From assembly GCA_030628225.1 (NCBI GenBank), contig DAOVRJ010000169.1, forward strand, positions 1 through 5,605: a DNA stretch of 5,605 nt, read 5' to 3'. The position numbers and the translations under genes were made by a program. The notes under the pieces were generated by a model. It had not been told where the DNA came from. It made no database searches and saw only the letters and a list, made by a program, of their open reading frames with translations. Of this stretch, positions 71-5,605 are shown in pieces. Within the stretch, counting starts at the first letter, position 1; every line of letters starts with the position of its first letter. This DNA comes from Candidatus Zixiibacteriota bacterium. GTDB taxonomy: Bacteria; SM23-81.

Positions 71-102
71 AAAAAAAGGCGACCCCTCTCAGAGCCGCCT
101 TT
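71..102 (-). terminator. Intrinsic terminator of the phosphoglycerate mutase gene
   Basis: Read on the minus strand, 102 to 75 folds into a hairpin. A perfect 7-bp outer stem (AAAGGCG with CGCCTTT) is extended by four more pairs, two of them G-T wobbles, around a six-base loop. A run of seven T follows (77-71). It begins 26 nt after the mutase stop codon. In the plus direction the stem is followed by only three T, so it should act mainly on minus-strand transcription. Confidence 0.8.
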
Positions 103-128
103 CCCACATCAGCATCGCAAAAAAACCC

Positions 129-1739
129 TCACCCCTCCGGCACCGCCCTCCCCTCCCCATAAACCAACTGCCGGTAGCACTTGGCCACCCGGTCCCAGTT
201 CTCCTCCCGGTCCAGGGCCCAGAAGCGGCCGACGACCGAGACCACCTGGCCCAGGCCGATCTGCTGCGCTTTCTCCTCCACCTTCTCGATGTAGATGGCC
301 CCGCTCTCCGGCTGCTCTCCCCGCCGGCCCAGGATGGAGTGGATGTACAGCTTGTCAACCCCCTGTTTCTTGGCCATGTCCATCAGGGAGAAGAGATGCT
401 GGATGGTGCCGTGGGAGCTGTAGAAGGAGACGATGCCCAAAAGGTGCAGGTTGGTGCCATCCTTCAGGGCCCCGTCCATGGCCCACAGGAAGGCTTCATT
501 CTCGAAGAAGGAGCCGTCCTTCACGGCGGCATCGATCCGGGAGCGGTCAGAGAGGATCCGGCGTCCGGCTCCGATGTGCAGATGTCCGGCCTCGGAGTTG
601 CCCACCTTGCCCTTCGGCAGACCCACCGGATCGCCGGAGGCATGCAAAGTGGTGTTGGGGCAGGTGGCCAGCAGCCGGTCCATGTTGGGAGTGTCGGCCC
701 CCGAGATGAGATTGGTCTCGCCGGGGGGCTGCACGCCCCAGCCGTCCAGGATGAGCAGGAACAGTCTCTGCCGCTTCGCGCCTTCCGTCGGAAGATAGTT
801 CTGCAGCAGGCTTTTGCCGGTCATGGCCTCCGGCCTGGGCAGGCCCAAGATCTCCAGGGCGGTGGGGGCCACATCGGTCAGGGACCCACCGTCCAGAAGG
901 GTCACCTCGGTCCCCGAGGGTGAGTGAGCATCCACCAGGATGAAGGGAACAGGGCTGGTGGTGTGACCGGTGTCGATGGCTCCGTCCGGGTAATACCACT
1001 TCTCCACCGTGCCGTGATCGGCCGTGATCAGGGTGGCCATTCCGGCCTTTTGGGCCGCCTGCACGGCCAGGCCCACCTGTGTGTCCACCGCCTCGACGGC
1101 CTGACGGATGGCCGGTTTGTTCTCCACGTGGCCGACCACATCGGTATTGCAGAAGTTGGTCACCACCAGATGGTACTGCGGATCGTTGATCTTCTCGATG
1201 GTCTTCCGGCAAACACCGGCGATGTTCATCTCCGGGAGCTGGTCGTAATCTCCCTCGATCTTGGGAGAGGGCAGGATGATCCGCTCCTCTCCGGGAAACG
1301 GTTCGTTGATCTTACCGTTGAGATAGAAGGTGATGTGCACGGCCTTCTCCGACTCGACGACCTTCACCTGTTTGAGACCATGGCGGCTGACCACCTCGCT
1401 GAGAGTGTCCCCTATTTTCTGGCTGGGCGGAAATGCCACCTGGTCGTTCAATCCTTCGGCATACTGGATCATGGTGGCCATGTGCACCCGAAGGTCTTTC
1501 TCCGTGGGAAAGTCGGTGAAGTCCTTCTCGGTGAGGCTTCGGGTCAGCTCCACCTCTCGCTCTCCCCTGATGTTGTAAAAGATGACATAATCGCCGTGCC
1601 GGATTTGCCCGATGGGTTTTCCGGCCTCATCTACCAGAACCAGGAGCTGCAGAGATTCATCCTCCTGGCCCTGACGATAAGATTGGCGCACGGCTTCAGA
1701 CATGGGATAATTCGCTTGCCGTCTTTCACCTCTGTTCAT
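129..1739 (-). CDS. gpmI: Circularly permuted 2,3-bisphosphoglycerate-independent phosphoglycerate mutase
   Basis: This is a homologue of iPGM, the Mn-dependent cytosolic enzyme that interconverts 3- and 2-phosphoglycerate in glycolysis. From the ATG at 1739 it has 536 residues, close to the usual length of about 510. Segment order is reversed: residues 10-315 match the second half of a normal iPGM (NIRGER 56-61, ESEK 129-132, NTDVVGH 198-204, TADHG 239-243, GHTTSPVPF 258-266). A linker (316-325) follows, then 326-536 match the normal first half (LILDGWG 329-335, GNSEAGH 380-386, GRFWALDR 504-511). Metal ligands D332, D200, H204, D241, H242 and H259, nucleophile S382, and R58, R61, K132, H443, R473, R505 and R511 are present. 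The residue matching catalytic Asp154 of the Geobacillus enzyme is Gly474. ATG 1739 was preferred over GTG 1775 because GGAG lies 6 nt upstream, while the GTG would be about 6 nt from the predicted transcript start. The homology is clear; retention of mutase activity is inferred. Confidence 0.9.
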   Translation of the reverse strand: MNRGERRQANYPMSEAVRQSYRQGQEDESLQLLVLVDEAGKPIGQIRHGDYVIFYNIRGEREVELTRSLTEKDFTDFPTEKDLRVHMATMIQYAEGLNDQVAFPPSQKIGDTLSEVVSRHGLKQVKVVESEKAVHITFYLNGKINEPFPGEERIILPSPKIEGDYDQLPEMNIAGVCRKTIEKINDPQYHLVVTNFCNTDVVGHVENKPAIRQAVEAVDTQVGLAVQAAQKAGMATLITADHGTVEKWYYPDGAIDTGHTTSPVPFILVDAHSPSGTEVTLLDGGSLTDVAPTALEILGLPRPEAMTGKSLLQNYLPTEGAKRQRLFLLILDGWGVQPPGETNLISGADTPNMDRLLATCPNTTLHASGDPVGLPKGKVGNSEAGHLHIGAGRRILSDRSRIDAAVKDGSFFENEAFLWAMDGALKDGTNLHLLGIVSFYSSHGTIQHLFSLMDMAKKQGVDKLYIHSILGRRGEQPESGAIYIEKVEEKAQQIGLGQVVSVVGRFWALDREENWDRVAKCYRQLVYGEGRAVPEG

Positions 1740-1745
1740 GAGCAT

Positions 1746-1751
1746 CTCCAA
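1746..1751 (-). promoter_or_regulatory. Ribosome binding site deciding the mutase start
   Basis: On the minus strand TTGGAG is followed by six bases and then the ATG at 1739. An in-frame ATG at 1745 directly abuts this site, which is too close. The in-frame GTG at 1775 lies inside an AAAGGTGAT string with no room for an upstream site. The site therefore supports a 536-residue product rather than 548. Confidence 0.65.
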
Positions 1752-1787: not shown

Positions 1788-1816
1788 ATTTTACGACAAC
1801 TTTTCCTAAAAGTCAA
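1788..1816 (-). promoter_or_regulatory. Sigma70-type promoter for the phosphoglycerate mutase gene
   Basis: On the minus strand TTGACT (1816-1811), a 17-nt spacer (1810-1794) and TAAAAT (1793-1788) make a near-consensus housekeeping promoter. Transcription would start near 1781-1782, giving a leader of about 42 nt to the ATG at 1739. No operator-like repeat overlaps it, so constitutive expression is plausible, as expected for a glycolytic gene. Confidence 0.75.
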
Positions 1817-2285: not shown

Positions 2286-5200
2286 ATGAAAAGAAGCTTG
2301 TTGGTTATGGTGATCGTTGCGGTCGTTCTCATCGGCCAGTTGCCTTCTCTGGCCGGACCTTCTCAGCCATGGGGAGATCTCTGTGTAGAGGAGAAGGTCA
2401 AAATGATCTTCCAGCCCAAGAGCAGGGAGCTGTTGCGTTCTGGCAAGGCCAAGTTGGAGCCCCTGCTGCGGGCGGAAAAGGCCGATACGCGACACTCATA
2501 CGATGTCCTGCACTATGAGATCAACATGGACATCGACATCTTCGCCGACAGCGTGCGGACAGCGTCTGTTTTCATCGACTGCCGCAGCCAGACAGACACC
2601 CTGACCACCGTGGATCTGGATTTCTACGGTATGGTCATAGACAGCGTGGCCACCGACGGCGTGTCTATGGGCTACACACAGGATGACGATCAGCTCCTGG
2701 TCCCGCTGGGTGCTGCCATCAGCGAGGGTGACTCCTTTCAGGTGGCCGTCTATTATCATGGCCATCCGCACACTACCGGCTGGAATGGTCTGTTTATTGA
2801 TCCGGACGTGACCTACACCATGTGCGAGCCGGAGGGGGCCCGCCTGTGGTTCCCCTGCTACGACAAGCCCTCCGACAAGGCCACCGCCGATCTGAACATC
2901 ACCGTGCCCGACGGCTATATCGTGGCCTCCAACGGGCTGCTGATGGAGACCGTCGCCGATGAGAAAGCGAAGACGGTGACCTACTGCTGGTCCGAGACCT
3001 ATCCCATCTGCACCTACCTGATCTCGTTGGCCATCTCCCAATACGCCACTTTTAGCTACTGGTACTACTTCGAGCAGGACTCAATGGAAATTACCTGTTT
3101 TGTGGATCCCGAAGATTCCTCCAACGCCGCTATGGATTTCCAGAACCTGCCGGAGATGATCGCCTGTTACTCCCAGCTGTACGGTCTCTATCCCTTCATC
3201 GAGGAGAAGTACGGCATGGCCACCTTCCCCTGGGGCGGTGCCATGGAGCACCAGACCTGCACCTCCTGGGGTCTCCCCATTCCCGGAAACCAGTACTGGG
3301 ATTGGGTGGTGGCCCACGAGCTGGCCCACCAGTGGTGGGGAGACTGGGTGTCGCCGGATAACTGGAAGGAGATCTGGCTCAACGAGGGCTTCGCCACCTA
3401 TTCCGAGGCCCTTTGGATGGAACACCTCTACGGTGCCTCGGGCCTGAGGTCTTACATGCAAGAGATGCAGGATTATTATATCTGGTGGGAGACCACGTGG
3501 GGCCAGCGTTTTCCCATCTACGATCCTCCCCCCGGTCAGATGTTCTCTGCCACGGAGTACGAGAAGGCCGGTTGCGTGTTGCACATGCTGCGCTTTGTGG
3601 TGGGAGACTCCACCTTTTTCGACATCCTCAAAACGTACGGAGCCACCTATGGCCATGGAAGCGTGGTCACCGAGGACTTTCAGGGCATCTGCGAGGCGGA
3701 GAGTGGAGAGGACCTGGACTGGTTCTTCGATCAGTGGATATACGATCAGGGACATCCGGAGTACACCTATGTCTGGACCGCTGAAGATCAAGGGGACAAG
3801 GGATATGAGCTGAACATCACCGTGGCCCAAGTGCAGGAGAATGCCCCCATCTTCAACATGCCCGTGGAGGTGAAGATCATCACCGCCACTGAGCAGATTC
3901 TGGACACGGTGATCGTGGACGAGGCCTCAGAGGTGATCCAGTTCGTGATTCAGAACGAGCCTGATTCTGTCCAGCTGGATCCCAACCGCTGGCTGCTCTG
4001 TGAGAAGGAGGAGGTGCACGCCACCGAGCCCATCCTGGTGATGTTGGAGTGGACCATCGACGACGAACAGGGCAACCAGAATGGCTGGCTCAGCCCCGGC
4101 GAGACGGTGGATTTCATCATCTCACTGCAAAATCAGGGGGCCACCGCCAGCGGGATGACGGCCGTGCTGCGCACCGGCGACGGGGACGTGACCATTGTCG
4201 ATAGCACTGCTGATTACGGGGAGATTCGCTTTAACCAAACGGGTGACAACGAAGCTACTCCTTTTGTTCTCTCCTGCCCTGTGGATATGGATCCTCACTG
4301 GGTTACCTTTGATCTGGTGATTCGTGATGTGGGTGCCTTTGAGGACACCATCGCTTTCCGGTTGCCTGCCGGCGACCCAACCATCTTGCTGGTGGATGAC
4401 GATGGCGGTGGGGATGAGCATCTTTTCTACATGGAGCTTCTGGACAGCCTGGATTACATCTACGATCTATATGAAGTCTCCAAGGCGGGCTCAGACATGT
4501 ACGACTTCGAGCAGTTCGATCTGCTCATCTGGTTCACCGCCCTGGAGAGCAGCAACACACTGACTACCGCTGATCAGGAGAGCCTGGCCGTCTATCTGGA
4601 CGGTGGCGGCGCCCTGCTGATCACCGGCAGCGGCCTGGGCAACGACATCGGGGCAACCGATTTCTACAATAATTACCTGTACTCCATCTGGGAGGGAGAA
4701 ACCTCCTCCACTATTCTGCAAGGGGTCACAGGCGATCCCATATCCGAGGGTACACTGGTGCTGATTTACGATGAGGGTGGCCGGCAGGATGTTCTTGCCG
4801 CCACCGAGGATGCCGGCACCTCTGTCTGTTTCAACTACATGGGCGCTGGAGCGGCGGCCATCCGGCATGAAAGCACCTACAAAAGCATCTATTTCGGATA
4901 TGCGCTGGAGAACACCAGAGACGACAATCCCAGCGCTCTTTCACCATACGGGTTGATGGACAGAATGCTGAACTGGTTCGGGGTCAGCACACCCGTGGAG
5001 CCGGGAGAAGCTCCGCTTGCCTCTCTGCCGGGAGCTTTTGCGCTTATCCAGAACTACCCCAACCCCTTCAACGCCTCCACGCGGATCACATTCCAGGTCC
5101 CGGGGCCTTCCCGGGTGAAGTTGAGAATCTTCAATATTCGCGGGCAGGAGGTGAAGATCCTGCTGGATGAGAACAAGACCGCCGGCGGTTATCTCTTGCT

Positions 5201-5309
5201 CTGGGATGGCACTGACGATCGCGGGGAGGCGGTGGCCAGCGGCATCTATTTCTGTCAGATGCGGGCTGGGGAGTATCGCCGGACACAGAAGATGCTGTTG
5301 CTGCGGTAA
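2286..5309 (+). CDS. Secreted M1-family zinc metallopeptidase with C-terminal sorting domain
   Basis: This exported zinc peptidase of the M1 (aminopeptidase N-like) family probably trims peptides outside the cell. Residues 1-23 form a signal peptide (KR, hydrophobic core, likely cleavage after SLA). Residues 70-260 are the M1 N-terminal beta domain, with WFPCYDKPSD at 188-197. The catalytic domain has GAMEH (318-322), HELAHQWWGD (344-353; zinc ligands H344, H348, E367 in LNEGFA) and transition-state tyrosine Y425 (YEKAG). GAMEH replaces the classical GAMEN exopeptidase motif; H in the last position is, as I recall, common in FCB-type secreted M1 enzymes. Residues about 581-695 look like an Ig-like/CARDB-type beta segment. 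Residues 698-900 begin ILLVDDDGGG and resemble a glutamine-amidotransferase-like fold without an obvious catalytic triad. Residues 918-1007 are a NYPNPFN-type FlgD-like/type IX sorting domain. The family is certain; substrate and the middle domains are inferred. No terminator is visible after the TAA. Confidence 0.93.
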   Translation: MKRSLLVMVIVAVVLIGQLPSLAGPSQPWGDLCVEEKVKMIFQPKSRELLRSGKAKLEPLLRAEKADTRHSYDVLHYEINMDIDIFADSVRTASVFIDCRSQTDTLTTVDLDFYGMVIDSVATDGVSMGYTQDDDQLLVPLGAAISEGDSFQVAVYYHGHPHTTGWNGLFIDPDVTYTMCEPEGARLWFPCYDKPSDKATADLNITVPDGYIVASNGLLMETVADEKAKTVTYCWSETYPICTYLISLAISQYATFSYWYYFEQDSMEITCFVDPEDSSNAAMDFQNLPEMIACYSQLYGLYPFIEEKYGMATFPWGGAMEHQTCTSWGLPIPGNQYWDWVVAHELAHQWWGDWVSPDNWKEIWLNEGFATYSEALWMEHLYGASGLRSYMQEMQDYYIWWETTWGQRFPIYDPPPGQMFSATEYEKAGCVLHMLRFVVGDSTFFDILKTYGATYGHGSVVTEDFQGICEAESGEDLDWFFDQWIYDQGHPEYTYVWTAEDQGDKGYELNITVAQVQENAPIFNMPVEVKIITATEQILDTVIVDEASEVIQFVIQNEPDSVQLDPNRWLLCEKEEVHATEPILVMLEWTIDDEQGNQNGWLSPGETVDFIISLQNQGATASGMTAVLRTGDGDVTIVDSTADYGEIRFNQTGDNEATPFVLSCPVDMDPHWVTFDLVIRDVGAFEDTIAFRLPAGDPTILLVDDDGGGDEHLFYMELLDSLDYIYDLYEVSKAGSDMYDFEQFDLLIWFTALESSNTLTTADQESLAVYLDGGGALLITGSGLGNDIGATDFYNNYLYSIWEGETSSTILQGVTGDPISEGTLVLIYDEGGRQDVLAATEDAGTSVCFNYMGAGAAAIRHESTYKSIYFGYALENTRDDNPSALSPYGLMDRMLNWFGVSTPVEPGEAPLASLPGAFALIQNYPNPFNASTRITFQVPGPSRVKLRIFNIRGQEVKILLDENKTAGGYLLLWDGTDDRGEAVASGIYFCQMRAGEYRRTQKMLLLR

Positions 5310-5315
5310 GGCCGA

Positions 5316-5360
5316 GATTCGAGACTCTTTGAACCCCGAGACTAGAGACTCGAGACTCGT
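5316..5360. repeat. Second family B array, interrupted
   Basis: Heptamers GATTCGA and GACTCTT (5316-5329), a ten-base interruption, then GACTAGA, GACTCGA and GACTCGT (5340-5360) repeat the pattern of the array at 1999-2040. The main block has three units against six there. It starts six bases after the peptidase stop codon, where a terminator would be expected; none is visible. Confidence 0.75.
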
Positions 5361-5386
5361 AAAGGCTGAAGTCAAAATATTTTTCC

Positions 5387-5421
5387 ATTTTGCATTTTTC
5401 ACTTTTCATTTTTCATTCTGC
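5387..5421. repeat. Second family A array, five units
   Basis: Five consecutive 7-nt units (ATTTTGC, ACTTTTC, ATTCTGC and ATTTTTC twice) match the array at 28-69 in consensus and in unit variants. A nine-base remnant (ATTTCATTT) joins it to the family D array at 5431. As at the left edge of the window, a family B element comes first. Confidence 0.75.
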
Positions 5422-5430
5422 ATTTCATTT

Positions 5431-5490: not shown

Positions 5491-5605
5491 ATGATCTGTC
5501 CTCGCTGTAAGACCAAGATGACGGAGCAGAAACGCAGCTTTCACAAGCGCCGCAAATGGGTGTGTAAGAGATGTGGGATGGTGAAGATGCAGGAGGTGAG
5601 CAGAG
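5491..5605 (+). CDS. Zinc-ribbon protein, N-terminal part only
   Basis: An ATG at 5491 opens a frame of 38 codons that runs off the window edge. It has a GGAGG ribosome binding site four bases upstream. The product starts MICPRCKTKM and has two CxxC pairs, C3-C6 and C25-C28, typical of a zinc ribbon that binds one Zn with four cysteines. Between them lies a strongly basic stretch (KRSFHKRRK, 14-22), suggesting nucleic-acid contact. I cannot tell whether the ribbon is the whole protein or the head of a larger one, so no function is assigned. It is co-directional with the peptidase gene but separated by 181 nt of repeat arrays, so it is probably a separate unit. Confidence 0.65.
   Translation, partial: MICPRCKTKMTEQKRSFHKRRKWVCKRCGMVKMQEVSR

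Follow-up and report, generated by a model that had tools for sequence, protein, structure and literature searches.

The minus-strand gene in the window (by which we mean the whole stretch of DNA analysed, 5,605 nucleotides) encodes a genuine and complete circular permutation of the chain of cofactor-independent phosphoglycerate mutase (iPGM). We consider it fairly probable that the protein is a two-metal phosphoserine phosphotransferase, which would have arisen from iPGM by one permutation and been re-tooled for another small phospho-carboxylate. The original prediction knew of no described permuted iPGM; in agreement with this, none was found in the open-access literature of PMC (subscription papers fell outside the search), and no word starting with "permut" occurs in the phosphoglycerate mutase (PGM) survey PMC2964296 or in the 338-sequence iPGM analysis PMC12077085.

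Order of the Two Halves and Structure Model

The comparison by phmmer with the iPGM of B. stearothermophilus (1ejj) returned two collinear blocks in swapped order (E 4e-121): residues 15-312 correspond to residues 218-509 of 1ejj, and residues 325-531 to residues 5-211, with 206 identities over 497 aligned residues (41%); a chance resemblance can be discarded. In Pfam, the Metalloenzyme domain (PF01676; 189.9 bits, gathering score 24.3) precedes iPGM_N, and the pieces of TIGR01307 are swapped likewise; the latter model gives 478.8 bits with both pieces summed (cut-off 330.65) and only 214-268 bits for single collinear pieces. The linear iPGM order, which runs from LILDGWG through GNSEAGH, DGRD, NFRxDR, K336, D403/H407 and TADHG to H462, is not that of the permuted protein. 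The phmmer blocks and the Pfam order therefore bear out the permuted motif order in one intact frame that had been read from the sequence originally; the linker, placed at ten residues (bases 765-794) in that reading, comprises about 12 residues according to the alignment (Table 1), and its length and sequence vary across the permuted family.

The domain boundaries were carried over by alignment from the iPGM of C. elegans, in which the phosphatase domain spans residues ~1-72 and 313-511 and is interrupted by the phosphotransferase domain (PMC8113725). In the permuted protein the phosphatase domain is continuous (residues 109-392, linker included), and it is the phosphotransferase domain that is divided between both chain ends. 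The chain would have been opened at iPGM position 212-218, which lies in the phosphotransferase domain, and the old C-terminus joined to the old N-terminus in one ancient event, the simplest route being tandem duplication, fusion and trimming; the phosphatase domain, formerly split, would have become continuous, and the phosphotransferase domain would have become the split one.

The AlphaFold2 model, built with 20 family sequences, has a pLDDT of 86 and a pTM of 0.83. It had been expected that the predicted structure would superpose on iPGM after permutation; VIA-align placed residues 11-313 of the model on residues 214-510 of 1o98 (293 residues, rmsd 2.0, Z 21.5), so that the expectation holds for this part of the chain, to which the superposition is confined. 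The TM-score is about 0.5 because order-dependent aligners cover one half only. The model of the C-terminal piece folded alone, without an alignment, was poor (pLDDT 47), and the equivalence of the second half to iPGM is based on the sequence together with the full-length model. iPGM is a two-domain enzyme whose active site forms on domain closure; the whole active site of the permuted protein would be expected to close at the level of the fold.

Upstream starts other than the one chosen for the gene are possible (ATG 1745 and GTG 1775). The gene had also been credited with its own promoter, ribosome binding site and terminator: the terminator hairpin, absent from the list of a simple scan, is supported by its folding energy, and the promoter and the GGAG fit the claim as consensus matches only.

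Table 1. Features of the permuted gene and its surroundings, in window coordinates.
Feature	Residues	Position	Strand	Basis
Permuted iPGM-family gene	536 aa	1739-129	minus	Intact frame, ATG at 1739, stop 131-129
Second half of phosphotransferase domain (1ejj ~214-312), now N-terminal	11-108	1416..1709	minus	Alignment, VIA-align
Main part of phosphatase domain (1ejj ~313-509)	109-312	804..1415	minus	Alignment
Linker from old C-terminus to old N-terminus	313-324	768..803	minus	Alignment
First part of phosphatase domain (1ejj 5-72)	325-392	564..767	minus	Alignment
First half of phosphotransferase domain (1ejj 73-211), now C-terminal	393-531	147..563	minus	Pfam, alignment
NIRGERE replacing NFRPDRA, R261/R264 kept as Arg58/Arg61	56-62	1554..1574	minus	Alignment
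FYSSHG replacing DGGVHS, H123 kept as His443	439-444	408..425	minus	Alignment
LGRRGE replacing LDGRD(T/V)	470-475	315..332	minus	Found in all 32 permuted sequences
GGAG, likely ribosome binding site, 6 bases 5' of ATG 1739		1746..1749	minus	Read from sequence
Promoter-like site TTGACT-17-TAAAAT		1788..1816	minus	Consensus match only
Likely intrinsic terminator past stop codon (GC-rich hairpin, then T7)		72..105	minus	-21 kcal/mol, z -4.16
M1 peptidase, divergent neighbour, outside the permuted system		2286..5309	plus	Pfam; synteny with sister genome

Conserved and Remodelled Parts of the Active Site

The seven metal ligands, serine nucleophile included, are identical to those of iPGM, namely Asp332 (D12), Ser382 (S62, the nucleophile), Asp200 (D403), His204 (H407), Asp241 (D444), His242 (H445) and His259 (H462), and the metal and nucleophile positions are conserved in the permuted and normal-order sets alike. 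The substrate residues are also kept, as His443 (H123), Arg473 (R153), Arg505 (R185), Arg511 (R191), Arg58 (R261), Arg61 (R264) and Lys132 (K336), and the same is true of E335; the equivalent of K336 sits in SEKAVH and not in SPK.

The DGRD and NFRxDR motifs, both listed in the original prediction, are not retained as such: they read LGRRGE, with the loss of Asp151 and Asp154, and NIRGERE, and DGGVHSH reads FYSSHGT. The change in the DGRD loop is found in 32 permuted sequences out of 32 (D151 to G, G152 to R, D154 to G), with Arg153 kept and an extra Arg at position 152, whereas D151, G152 and D154 are invariant in 47 normal-order rows. In the work on 1ejj, D154 is said to contact the glycerate hydroxyl. 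Moreover, 23 positions are conserved in both groups with different residues (permuted sequences versus the 47 normal-order rows); 14 of them lie at most two residues from a catalytic residue, against 2.9 expected (p=3e-8). At the sequence level, the active-site shell is thus remodelled in the permuted family.

Since the LGRRGE loop and the remodelled shell are present in all the permuted sequences, it is rather probable that the substrate, although related to 3- or 2-phosphoglycerate, is a different one; the retention of most substrate-binding residues of iPGM counts against this reading. Without Asp154, the phosphoserine might also be hydrolysed and not returned to the acid, which would make the protein a phosphatase (phosphomonoesterase) acting on a small phospho-carboxylate. 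Such an enzyme would agree with a serine/metal site that is fully kept and with a transferase half that has changed most at its loop, but a plain phosphatase would have no need of the strictly conserved set of glycerate-binding arginines, and we regard it as unlikely; it represents one version of the mutase-or-phosphatase alternative embedded in the explanation that we favour.

Distribution and Origin of the Permuted Family

The original prediction proposed a search for permuted chains and a mapping of their taxonomy. The search of the collection and of further genomes yielded 31 others from several phyla, that is, 32 distinct permuted sequences with frames read, to which G452, seen only as a full-length match, has to be added to reach the 33 carriers considered below; the breakpoint is common to all the sequences read. 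The carrier titles are those of Zixibacteria SM23_81, Chloroflexota/Thermoflexia/Anaerolineae, Deltaproteobacteria, Thermodesulfobacteriota, Neomarinimicrobiota, Armatimonadetes and Planctomycetota, and the carriers with record titles are metagenome-assembled genomes (MAGs) throughout. The permuted form is rare, being harbored by 2 of 301 Chloroflexota genomes and, in the phylum to which the Thermodesulfobacteriota carrier belongs, by 13 of 297. This patchy distribution suggests a transfer of the permuted gene between lineages.

In the tree of the full protein, and in a separate tree for each half, a branch with a support of 100 separates the permuted rows from all the others; the stem of this clade measures ~0.98 changes per site in the full tree. 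The recovery of one permuted clade in all the trees implies that the permutation most likely happened once. A normal-order precursor with an altered loop was not found; in four carriers (L129-L132), the iPGM in normal order retains DGRD.

The closest comparison is offered by the sister genome, Zixibacteria SM23_81, whose copy is 80% identical to the window protein and lies beside the same divergent M1-peptidase gene as in the window. The dN/dS between the two genes is ~0.14 (481 codons), and the permuted gene is under purifying selection. The sister copy (L021, ~7440-7510) has lost about 110 bases near its 3' end, with a frameshift and the disappearance of the R185/R191 region; this deletion may represent a pseudogene or an assembly error. 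Together with the fragmentation of the window's assembly (306 contigs), it might lead one to suspect an assembly chimera or a pseudogene in the window as well. This explanation, whose probability we consider negligible and whose chimera version had been judged improbable from the start, is ruled out by the 31 further permuted sequences from independent assemblies, all sharing one breakpoint, by the synteny with the sister genome and by the dN/dS value.

Co-Occurrence with Other Phosphoglycerate Mutases

The presence of other PGMs was checked in the 33 carriers. apgM lies above the curated cut-off in 30 of them, including the window's genome (PRK04135 equivalog, 590 bits, cut-off 468; G000:C148:1781-2899), which also encodes an enolase and in which apgM is probably the glycolytic PGM. 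Concerning the other three, G064 has an ordinary iPGM, while G072 and G073 have an enolase and no other PGM was found in them; another PGM is therefore present in 31 of the 33 carriers, and in four carriers of the Thermodesulfobacteriota set apgM, ordinary iPGM and the permuted gene occur together. Among the 301 Chloroflexota genomes, 143 have an ordinary iPGM, 97 have apgM and 2 have both, versus 45 expected, and 8 out of 10 Chloroflexota permuted carriers have apgM, with p-values (5e-32 and 3e-10, respectively) that are optimistic, since the genomes are related and the shared ancestry of the carriers inflates them; the trend itself is nevertheless clear. Ordinary iPGM and apgM thus almost exclude each other in the sampled Chloroflexota. 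The presence of apgM in 30 of the 33 carriers, set against this exclusion, implies that the permuted protein is probably not the glycolytic mutase of the cell.

A second, redundant PGM beside apgM would nevertheless be compatible with the co-occurrence. According to this alternative, the protein would be a true PGM in permuted order, in which another acid (e.g., the invariant Glu475, Glu60 or Glu62) replaces the DGRD aspartate, and it would serve glycolysis or gluconeogenesis alongside apgM. The metal ligands, the nucleophile, Arg153, Arg185, Arg191, Arg261, Arg264, His123 and Lys336 are all kept; the TIGR01307 score over the whole protein exceeds its cut-off; more than one PGM type is known in some bacteria (PMC2964296); and G072 and G073, with their enolase, are carriers in which a PGM function of the permuted protein is possible. 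On the other hand, Asp151 and Asp154 are gone from every permuted sequence, the active-site shell is remodelled, and the occurrence of another PGM in nearly all the carriers is unlike the behaviour of ordinary iPGM in the Chloroflexota sample. We hold a permuted true PGM to be the main alternative, a serious one although less probable than the reading that we favour. The initial view of the protein as simply an iPGM in another order is not supported, on the same three grounds (the lost catalytic-loop aspartates, the coordinated active-site changes and the other PGM), and a changed substrate is rather probable.

Gene Neighbourhood

No conserved neighbourhood across phyla was found among the carrier loci compared, and the neighbours differ by lineage. 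In one group of deltaproteobacteria (L073, L083, L144, L145, L146 and L147), a macro-domain gene (O-acetyl-ADP-ribose deacetylase-like) lies on the same strand, 3' of the permuted gene; genes for an M23 peptidase and a protein-isoaspartate methyltransferase are also near the permuted gene within a deltaproteobacterial group. A histidine-phosphatase gene adjoins or overlaps the permuted gene in two Chloroflexota, and a PHP-domain gene adjoins it in one Neomarinimicrobiota. Guilt by association was consequently discarded as a guide to function, the neighbours indicating no single pathway. Their variation counts against the changed-substrate reading. As for the phosphatase discussed above, the enzymes of phosphoesters and ADP-ribose (macro domain, histidine phosphatase and PHP) adjoining in a few lineages favor it, but the neighbours are inconsistent between lineages.

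In the window, the M1 peptidase looks secreted and has a C-terminal sorting tail that is FlgD-like or of the Por secretion type. Two types of intergenic repeat were also observed. The first is a dispersed repeat of GATTCGAGACTCGAGATTCG-like units (positions 1995-2039 and 5336-5359), which has 99 matches with at most two mismatches in its own genome and 0 in the reversed control; the second is T-rich (TTTTCACTTTTCATTTTGCATTTTTCA; positions 17-73 and 5369-5425) and flanks both genes. A short tandem repeat of CCAGGAT units occupies intergenic positions 2147-2175, and the opening part of a frame at positions 5491-5605, cut by the contig edge, contains CxxC pairs (MICPRCKTKM...CKRCGM) and may encode a small zinc ribbon.

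Proposed Function and Its Implications

In principle, we can depict the following scenario for the activity of the permuted protein. Two metals would be held by Asp332, Ser382, Asp200, His204, Asp241, His242 and His259, and the phosphoryl group of a small phospho-acid would pass to Ser382, forming a phosphoserine, a step suggested by the residues retained in the sequence. The acid, bound by Arg58, Arg61, Arg473, Arg505, Arg511, His443 and Lys132, would then be either re-phosphorylated (mutase) or let go (phosphatase), and glycolysis in most of the carrier cells would be served by apgM. In a broader sense, we lean slightly toward considering these proteins a new enzyme family, which would have originated from one natural permutation, spread between phyla and acquired a mutase or phosphatase activity on a phospho-carboxylate other than phosphoglycerate.

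If this is true, the swap of the "inserted" domain went together with a change in substrate. A natural permutant in which the chemistry is kept and the continuous domain exchanged would offer a direct test linking domain connectivity, hinge motion and substrate choice. It is also relevant to annotation: since the summed TIGR01307 score passes, an automatic procedure would call these proteins phosphoglycerate mutases. For most carriers this name is probably incorrect, and metabolic models of MAGs from Chloroflexota, Zixibacteria and Thermodesulfobacteriota would be misled by it.

Comparison with Known Systems

Two defining features of iPGM, the linear order and the DGRD loop with Asp154, were checked and neither was found; the protein is thus classed as a permuted variant and not as an iPGM. 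With the bacterial-type iPGM (TIGR01307; 1ejj, 1o98) it shares 41% identity over 497 residues, the metal ligands, Ser62, His123, the arginines, Glu335 and Lys336; it differs in that the chain of the permuted family is opened at 212-218, the family co-occurs with apgM, and DGRD is changed to LGRRGE, DGGVHSH to F(Y/F)SSHG and NFRPDR to RGERE. The archaeal-type apgM (TIGR00306/PRK04135) belongs to the same superfamily, and the match to it is local, limited to the metal-binding part and well below the cut-off (34.4 bits versus 320); unlike the permuted protein, apgM represents a different, shorter family, and it is encoded by a separate gene in the window's genome. Lastly, phosphopentomutase and the arylsulfatases/NPPs of the alkaline phosphatase superfamily have the fold of the phosphatase domain in common with the permuted protein (Z 11.8 for the phosphopentomutase 3m7v), but the model matches them only in part, mainly in that domain, and with an identity of at most 20%.
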